Shown here piece by piece: positions 2,451 through 5,400 of a stretch of DNA of 64,000 nt (the first letter of the stretch is position 1; each line of letters begins with the position of its first letter). Source of the DNA: Diprion similis (lineage: Eukaryota; Arthropoda; Insecta; Hymenoptera; Diprionidae); the NCBI RefSeq assembly GCF_021155765.1, contig NC_060106.1:10795501-10859500 (forward strand), in the 5' to 3' direction. The translations under genes were made by a program, and so were the position numbers. A model generated the notes under the pieces. The model did not search any database and was not told where the DNA came from. It saw nothing but the letters and a program-made list of their open reading frames with translations.

Positions 2451-5400
2451 ATGGCGGATCAGGTAAGCCTCCCGTAATTATTCCAACTGAGAATCGTAAC
2501 TTCCACGCGATATCTGCGCTGTTTTCAAAAGTTTTAACCGTTCGTAGGTTTTCTACAACCCCGGAATTTATCCTAATCCAAAATTACGCTGCACGCGAAC
2601 AACAAACCAAGTCAAAATGCGATAACGTTATGCCACCGACACGTGGGCCGCGTCGTCTCTTCACTTTGTATTTTCGCATCTCGATATATTTCACGCCCGA
2701 TTCTACGTCAGGTTTTCAATTCAAGGCGTTCTTACCCCAAGATTGAATAAATGGAACTCAAAGTTCGACGTGAGATTTTTTTGATGTACGAATAATCAAT
2801 TACTCGACTCTTTGACGCTGCGTTTGTCGCTTTATCAAGATGTTTTTACAGCGTATAATTTGGCCGCAATCCCCGCGTTTATATTTACGGTTAAATTTGA
2901 AACGGTTACAAAATGACATTCTGACAGAGGTTTTAGGATGTAGATAAAATTTGCTAAAAGTTCCGAGAGGTGTAACATATATACTTAACCTCACAACGGC
3001 ACCGTGTCAACTCCATATTTCGACAGATTTAAACTACGAGACACGCGAAGTTGTCTGACAGATTCAAACTGAGTACCGATGATTGTTTGAGATAGAAAAA
3101 AAAATCGAATAATTGCAGTATGATGATACTTGACGACGGTCTTCTGAATACCACTTGGTGACACATCGTCTACTGACATGCAATATAATTTGATTGAATT
3201 TCTAGCACAATTCAAAACTATTGTCTAATTAATTTTTACAATCGTGCCCCTATCGAAAGTCAGCGAATATTCAACTACTGAATGACAAAAGTGAATCGCT
3301 TGTACACGCGTGTTGATATGGATTGAATGTTTGCAGAACGAGCGTTCTTTCCAGCGACAACCGACGATCTTTCTTAATCGAAAGAAAGGTCTCGGGCAGA
3401 AGCGTAGGAAGTCTATGAGGTATAGCCGTAGCGTCGGTCTTGGCTTTAAGACTCCTCGCGAGGTGAGCATTGCATCGAAGAAGTAAACTAATGTGTTTCT
3501 TTGTTTCTTTTTTTCGGAAAGACGGAAAAGGCTTTTCAGAAACAACCCACGGTCAACCTCAACAGGAAGGCTAATCTGAAGAAGAAGCCACTCAGGTTGA
3601 GTCGTAGTGTCGGCCTTGGTTTTAAAACTCCCCGTGAGGTTTGTTACAGATTTTCAGAAAACTATAACGTCTATGGGGTCAACGTTCTAATTCATGTTCT
3701 TTCCTGGTGCTCGCTCTATTGGTCGTCGATCGGTGGTGGCTTGTTGGTGTTGGAGTGTGCCGATTGCCAGTGCTTTTATTAATTACATGTTTGCTGCGCT
3801 AGTGCATTGATAATGCAAAGTTACCAGCTGGTCCCAAATATTTTCTAACAAACCTGATTCCCATGTTTCTCATTTATTATTTACTTGATAATCTTTTCTG
3901 TATTCAGGTTAAACAAATGTTTGGCTAAAGCGGCACTTTACATTCTCAATGTATCAATACTCTAAAACTGCTATGTAAATATTTTCAGGGACAATTTTTG
4001 GAATTCTATCATAATTCAAAGGAGAACGACGATTAAAATCTATGATTCTTATCAATTACATGATTCTAGTCAAAGTACTGTTTCAACCTAAGACAATTTT
4101 TCCATTATACAGATATAATTATTCTGACTGATCATTAATCGAACTTCATTTGGGACGGATTCTTGAAACTTTCTAACTTGAAATAGTATTTGGAAACATT
4201 TTACATTAAATTAATTCTTAAATTAACATGAGGATTTTTAATTCCATCTGAAATGTCATAACGACCTGTCACAGTTTTCAAAGTTGCAAATTGGAACATT
4301 TTCCATGTGATTATTCCCTCCTATGTTTACGATCAATTGGTTAGTCCTCCTTTGAAAACTTTCAAATTAAAACTCAAATGGCAATACCAGGTTCTATTGG
4401 AACAGCAAAGTGCTCCGTATAATAAAATGTTTTTAATATTTTTAAGATTTGTGATAAACGCATGTGATTTAGACACATATACAAAGCCATTTGATTTTTA
4501 ATTATTGTAATTACAATCTCTGTTCTATTCTCAATATAAATACTAACTGAAATGATCGACTGCTGGGATTTAGCTGCTTGTGAACACTGATGAATAAATG
4601 CGCGAATAATGTGTGTAAAACGATATACCAATCATCTCTCAAAGGCTTTGAAATTTAGCTTGTATCTAAAACTTCATTAACACTTTATCTGCAATCGCAG
4701 CTTTTTTCTCTTGCAATAATTGTTGCTTCATAATGAGAGTTTTTTCTCTTTTTCTTCATCCGAGCAAGTTTTACTAACCTGAATCATGCGCGTTTGCGGC
4801 TAGTTTTCCAAAAGTCCAGAATAGTACGAATGTATTCATTTTACTTTCAATAGAAAATATATCTATACTGTTATTGCTGGCATTCTATCATACGCATATT
4901 TTTCTCTCAACTCATAGCTAAAAATAAATCGATTATTTTTATGGTGGTGGAAACTTTCTTCTGATACTAATAAAATCGAACACAAATGAGTACCGAGTAA
5001 CGTATTAATTTTTCATTTTCCTTCCTGTGCAGGCTATCGAAGGTACCTACATCGACAAAAAGTGCCCATTTACCGGCAATGTTTCCATTAGAGGACGCAT
5101 TTTGACCGGAGTAGTACAGAAGATGAAGATGCAACGCACGATTGTTATTCGCAGGGATTATCTTCACTATATCCGGAAATATAATCGATTTGAAAAACGT
5201 CACCGGAATATGAGTGTCCACTTGAGCCCTTGCTTCAGGTAATTACTTAAATTATGTTATACTGATATGTATAGCATTACAAAATTATCTCACGCCCTTT
5301 TCTGGCTCAGTTTGATTTTAACCTTTACTCAATGATGATATTGACGACGGTCTTCTGAATACAAATTGAAGTTTATTTCATCGTCTACTGATGTAGTGGA

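Follow-up and report, generated by a model that had tools for sequence, protein, structure and literature searches.

Two homologous second coding exons in the RpS11 gene of Diprion similis, plausibly spliced in a mutually exclusive manner

The RpS11 (uS17) gene of Diprion similis contains two homologous second coding exons, 2a and 2b, which are separated by an intron of 59 nt and which both bear the mark of constraint on their protein. As judged from the divergence of the two copies, the pair is an old tandem duplication of the second coding exon. The explanation towards which we lean, with moderate confidence, is that exon 1 is spliced to either 2a or 2b and the chosen exon then to exon 3, exclusivity arising most likely by crowding of the splicing machinery on the short intron. 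The outcome would be a uS17 protein of 155 or 152 residues, the two forms differing in the N-terminal extension. The analysis was carried out on a stretch of 64,000 nt from contig NC_060106.1 (positions 10,795,501 to 10,859,500 of the forward strand), referred to as the window, and all coordinates are given as window positions.

Gene structure and protein products of the RpS11 locus

The RpS11 gene is located on the + strand at positions 2451–5600. A genome-wide search with the protein (269 Mb, 60 contigs) resulted in four matches, which correspond to exons 2a, 2b, 3 and 4 of this gene. As only exons of the window gene were matched, a second RpS11 copy was rejected at that search depth, and the window locus is the sole RpS11 locus found in the 269-Mb genome.

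The coding part of exon 1 (2451–2462, + strand) encodes MADQ and ends at the 5′ splice site CAG/GTAAGC. Exon 2a (3337–3462, + strand) comprises 126 nt or 42 codons and exon 2b (3522–3638, + strand) 117 nt or 39 codons, both of them open. The intron between the two (3463–3521, + strand) contains one consensus branch point, a pyrimidine tract and an AAG acceptor. Exon 2b ends at the weak donor GAG/GTTTGT and contains a possible in-frame inner CAG acceptor at 3537–3539 (+ strand). The gene is continued by exon 3 (5033–5238, + strand), which ends in SPCFR, and by exon 4 (5476–5600, + strand), which is coding through the stop codon. Both second exons are preceded by AG and followed by GT, are in phase 0 at either end and finish with an identical block of 13 residues. 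The first-pass annotation, made from the sequence without database searches, had described two exchangeable homologous second exons around a 59-nt intron, and its coordinates and frames were verified.

In-silico splicing with the common exons 1, 3 and 4 yielded products of 155 aa with exon 2a and 152 aa with exon 2b, the two lengths that had been proposed. Among the best 60 of 119 phmmer matches, the top match of either form was a chain named 40S ribosomal protein S11 (1.4e-84 for the 2a form, 4.4e-81 for the 2b form), and both spliced forms are similar to eukaryotic 40S S11 over their full length. Since the lengths of exons 2a and 2b are multiples of three (126 and 117 nt), double inclusion and double skipping preserve the frame as well, and all four splice outcomes are open, with 155 (2a), 152 (2b), 194 (both) and 113 aa (neither). 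Joint inclusion causes no frameshift, and exclusivity is therefore not forced by the reading frame.

Upstream of the RpS11 start, an in-frame ATG occurs at 2346 with no stop codon between the two, and initiation there would add 35 codons. A pyrimidine run just 5′ of 2443 resembles a 5′TOP transcription start, and a putative start site near 2443 would place the ATG at 2346 outside the mRNA.

Age of the exon pair and its resemblance to S11 of other animals

Alignment of the proteins encoded by exons 2a and 2b covered 39 positions and scored 128, far beyond chance, as 2000 shuffles averaged -11.1 and never exceeded 31. A Nei-Gojobori count over the 39 aligned codons, which is one comparison of exon 2a against exon 2b in one species, revealed differences at 20 of 26.7 silent sites (pS 0.75, saturated) and at 22 of 90.3 replacement sites (pN 0.24). 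The last 13 codons, a block chosen for its identical protein, differ by 7 silent changes. For the flanks of the two exons, no significant similarity was detected with 500 shuffles each (P 0.99 upstream, P 0.09 downstream).

The saturated silent change (pS 0.75) together with the pN of 0.24 argues against both a recent duplication and a decaying relic exon, and the two readings were rejected. Because pN is 0.24 at saturated pS, both copies have been constrained at the protein level for most of their history, which points to prolonged selection on the two encoded peptides. The homology of the two coding exons that had been read from the letters is confirmed by the alignment score, and the pair has the features of mutually exclusive exons: adjacent and homologous exons of the same phase, each of which completes a full protein, with protein-level selection visible on both in the comparison between them. 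Given this age and the retention of both copies as protein, the gene likely yields uS17 in two forms, of 155 and 152 aa.

Exon 2a outscored exon 2b with four S11 chains labelled octopus, fish, frog and mammal, of which the last three labels are assumed by us. This agrees with the designation of 2a as vertebrate-like in the first-pass annotation, although it could simply be the more ancient form in animals. The match to chain 9eho, assigned to octopus through PMC13321053, reached 58.9 bits for exon 2a and 47.0 bits for exon 2b, and the two exons thus resemble uS17 N-termini independently of each other. The companion designation of 2b as fly-like is weakly supported. The row most identical to exon 2b (77% over 43 columns) is the S11 chain of 4v6w, which we take to be that of the fly, but the scores of this chain are nearly equal for both exons (alignment scores of 143 with 2b and 138 with 2a; 46.6 and 44.3 bits, respectively), and a tree of nine N-terminal segments contained no supported fork. 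The tree thus does not assign the fly form to either exon, and the fly-like character of 2b is to be regarded as a weak lead.

In a search of viral contigs, no relative was found. The search of genome contigs resulted in five loci, all of them filed under prokaryote assemblies. One of these, at 9686–10375 of a contig filed as Crocinitomicaceae bacterium, is a eukaryotic-type S11 gene with 70% identity. Its N-terminal part is encoded in another frame, as though an intron intervened. The contig is probably a eukaryotic one within a bacterial assembly and is uninformative on insects.

Intron length, branch point and splice sites

The 59-nt intron was compared with other introns of this genome, called where they separate conserved coding segments. 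In total, 67 introns were called, 30 of them in myosin, 29 in kinesin and eight in carboxylesterase genes; nine scored under 8, all longer than 60 nt, and were dropped, so that 58 were kept. The myosin introns were derived from 59 of 84 matches, with 31 adjacent pairs at a gap of 15–160 nt, the kinesin introns from 44 of 72 matches, and the carboxylesterase introns from 16 of 115 matches, where they were selected for their short length out of 20 estimated pairs. The sample is thus weighted to short introns and, as the sites were picked by consensus score, the site statistics lean towards the consensus.

The shortest of the 58 sampled introns have lengths of 60, 62, 62, 63 and 63 nt, and the 2a–2b intron is 1 nt shorter than the lowest of these values. 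A gap-only estimate from 67 pairs (53 of 72 kinesin, 37 of 115 carboxylesterase and 23 of 39 chaperonin matches used) resulted in a minimum of 60 nt. The two introns of 62 nt have a length not divisible by three, and the 60-nt and both 63-nt introns contain stops in all three frames, so that all five must be removed for read-through; by these features they look like real and spliced introns. In both 63-nt introns, the called acceptor is AAG. Since introns of 60–63 nt were called in this genome, a length of 59 nt is by itself no block to splicing, and it appears to be at the edge of the lengths spliced here, not clearly beyond it. Insects generally splice shorter introns than mammals.

The sole consensus branch point of the 59-nt intron is CTAAT, whose A (3491) lies 28 nt downstream of the 5′ splice site, the distance that had been noted before; the next A falls within the last six bases of the intron. 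Consensus branch candidates were present in 49 of the 58 introns; the farthest candidate is located at least 35 nt from the 5′ splice site in 48 of the 49. The one remaining intron (69 nt) has a candidate only at 10 nt. Several sampled introns hold nearer candidates as well, and in the 60-nt intron candidates occur at 19, 25 and 36 nt. All of these are distances to consensus candidates with the farthest match taken, and the candidates at 19 and 25 nt in the 60-nt intron and at 10 nt in the 69-nt intron indicate that real distances may be overstated. The branch-point distance of 28 nt would argue better for a steric block than the length of 59 nt, though not cleanly, and a steric block of 2a-to-2b splicing is plausible.

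Splice sites were scored with a matrix built from the same 58 introns. The donor of exon 1 scored above 84% of the sampled donors, that of exon 2a above 64% and that of exon 2b above 21%. The acceptor of exon 2a scored above 52% of the sampled acceptors and the AAG acceptor of exon 2b above just 5%, despite its long pyrimidine tract. The inner CAG acceptor in exon 2b scored above 17%, and its use would drop TEKAFQ from the exon. Because TEKAFQ is homologous to other S11 proteins, position 3522 is favored as the true start of exon 2b.

According to the preferred explanation, U1 bound to the strong 2a donor and U2 bound to the 2b branch point 28 nt downstream could not both act. Their clash would make the joining of 2a to 2b inefficient and the choice between the exons exclusive. 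From the features described, exclusive use of 2a or 2b is plausible and crowding would be a reasonable mechanism, but no stronger claim is made for it; both exons are probably used. Evidence against this explanation is given by the spliced-looking introns of 60–63 nt, the near branch candidates, the open frames of all outcomes and the weak 2b acceptor.

A part of this evidence would fit a situation in which some transcripts have the 59-nt intron removed and one of the exons acts as a cassette, resulting in a tandem protein of 194 aa, perhaps besides the short forms. Double inclusion is in frame, the introns of 60–63 nt look real, and a fly RpS11 record of more than 155 aa may exist in UniProt. 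Against this, 48 of 49 sampled introns have a branch candidate farther from the 5′ splice site than the lone one of the 59-nt intron, and a repeated N-terminal extension would probably be a misfit in the 40S subunit. Furthermore, the S11 chain has 155 residues in 4v6w, 6xu6, 6xu7 and 6xu8, which are presumably fly ribosomes. On balance, a cassette exon is considered possible but rather unlikely.

Still less probable is the use of one exon alone in practice, with the other being an old copy maintained by a different constraint. The low scores of both the 2b acceptor and the 2b donor would be in line with it, but the pN of 0.24 at saturated pS requires protein-level constraint on both copies. 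A similarly low probability is assigned to an exon choice set by RNA structure or by a splicing factor instead of crowding. The pyrimidine tract and AAG acceptor of exon 2b can form a predicted hairpin (3485–3545, -12.2 kcal/mol), and the region 3300–3680 was predicted to fold more stably than any of 100 shuffled sequences (z -2.48); however, this is a prediction from a single sequence and across coding sequence, and such a structure would be compatible with crowding acting as well.

Relation to known systems and further features of the window

Exclusive exon pairs of the alpha-tropomyosin type are set by a short distance between the 5′ splice site and the branch point. RpS11 resembles this type in its pair of homologous in-frame exons, in the very short intron between them and in a branch point near the upstream donor. 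It differs in being a ribosomal protein gene, for which exclusivity and crowding are proposed.

Names for RpS11 isoforms are already in use for insects. A honeybee gene was listed against fly RpS11-PC in a table in which several other genes are also labelled -PC (PMC1929063), and a Spodoptera (armyworm) probe was named ‘ribosomal protein s11 isoform 1’ (PMC3629120). The gene concerned is the same as in Diprion similis, and an isoform is named; the entries do not state the basis of the isoform difference, so that identity with the 2a/2b pair is not established by them (PMC1929063, PMC3629120). The pair is possibly already present in insect annotations. In the titles and abstract starts of the openly licensed papers matched by the literature searches, no description of exclusive RpS11 exons was found, which speaks only weakly for its absence.

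Ribosome heterogeneity by paralogue switching was described for Drosophila gonads, with RpS11 being enriched in 80S ribosomes of the fly head (PMC8887423); the string ‘alternative splic’ is absent from the main text of that article. What the two cases share is a ribosomal protein that occurs in two or more forms within the animal, as predicted for RpS11. In the Drosophila case, however, the forms are encoded by separate paralogue genes (PMC8887423), whereas alternative exons of one gene would be the source in RpS11. The wider reading is an ancient exon-encoded switch in single-copy RpS11, undescribed in print, which would give rise to two kinds of insect 40S subunits differing in the uS17 N-terminal extension, by exclusive splicing and not by paralogues; we consider it doubtful at present. 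The usual arguments for ribosome heterogeneity are based on paralogues or expression levels, and a single gene that has two constrained exons for its N-terminus would allow a clean test in which one exon is removed with the gene dosage untouched. As the saturated silent change marks the pair as old, it is expected in related species.

The RpS11 gene also contains three C/D box snoRNA-like copies, one per intron, at 3114–3187, about 5327–5395 and about 5708–5776, which share TTGACGACGGTCTTCTGAATAC. The third of them is hosted by a probable 3′UTR intron (about 5626–5847). The first copy matched SNORD35 of Rfam with 23.6 bits (cut-off 36); human RPS11 also hosts a SNORD35. All three copies weakly matched sn3071 (17.7–18.9 bits, cut-off 40), and a genome search with the second copy matched just the second and the third.

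In total, all seven Rfam matches in the window were below the gathering scores. The match to MIR6140 at 11801–11939 was rejected as a microRNA due to its score below the gathering score and its location in a dispersed palindromic repeat. This repeat of about 140 nt (11795–11945) has 34 genome matches, including itself and both-strand matches of the same places, and is a MITE-like element. The match to MIR2646 at 9275–9524 was likewise rejected as a microRNA (54.7 bits, cut-off 245); an inverted repeat of about 250 nt is located there, which is probably another hairpin repeat. Furthermore, an arginine methyltransferase gene was identified on the minus strand at 9770–10966, with PRMT_C in one ORF and the methyltransferase domains in another.
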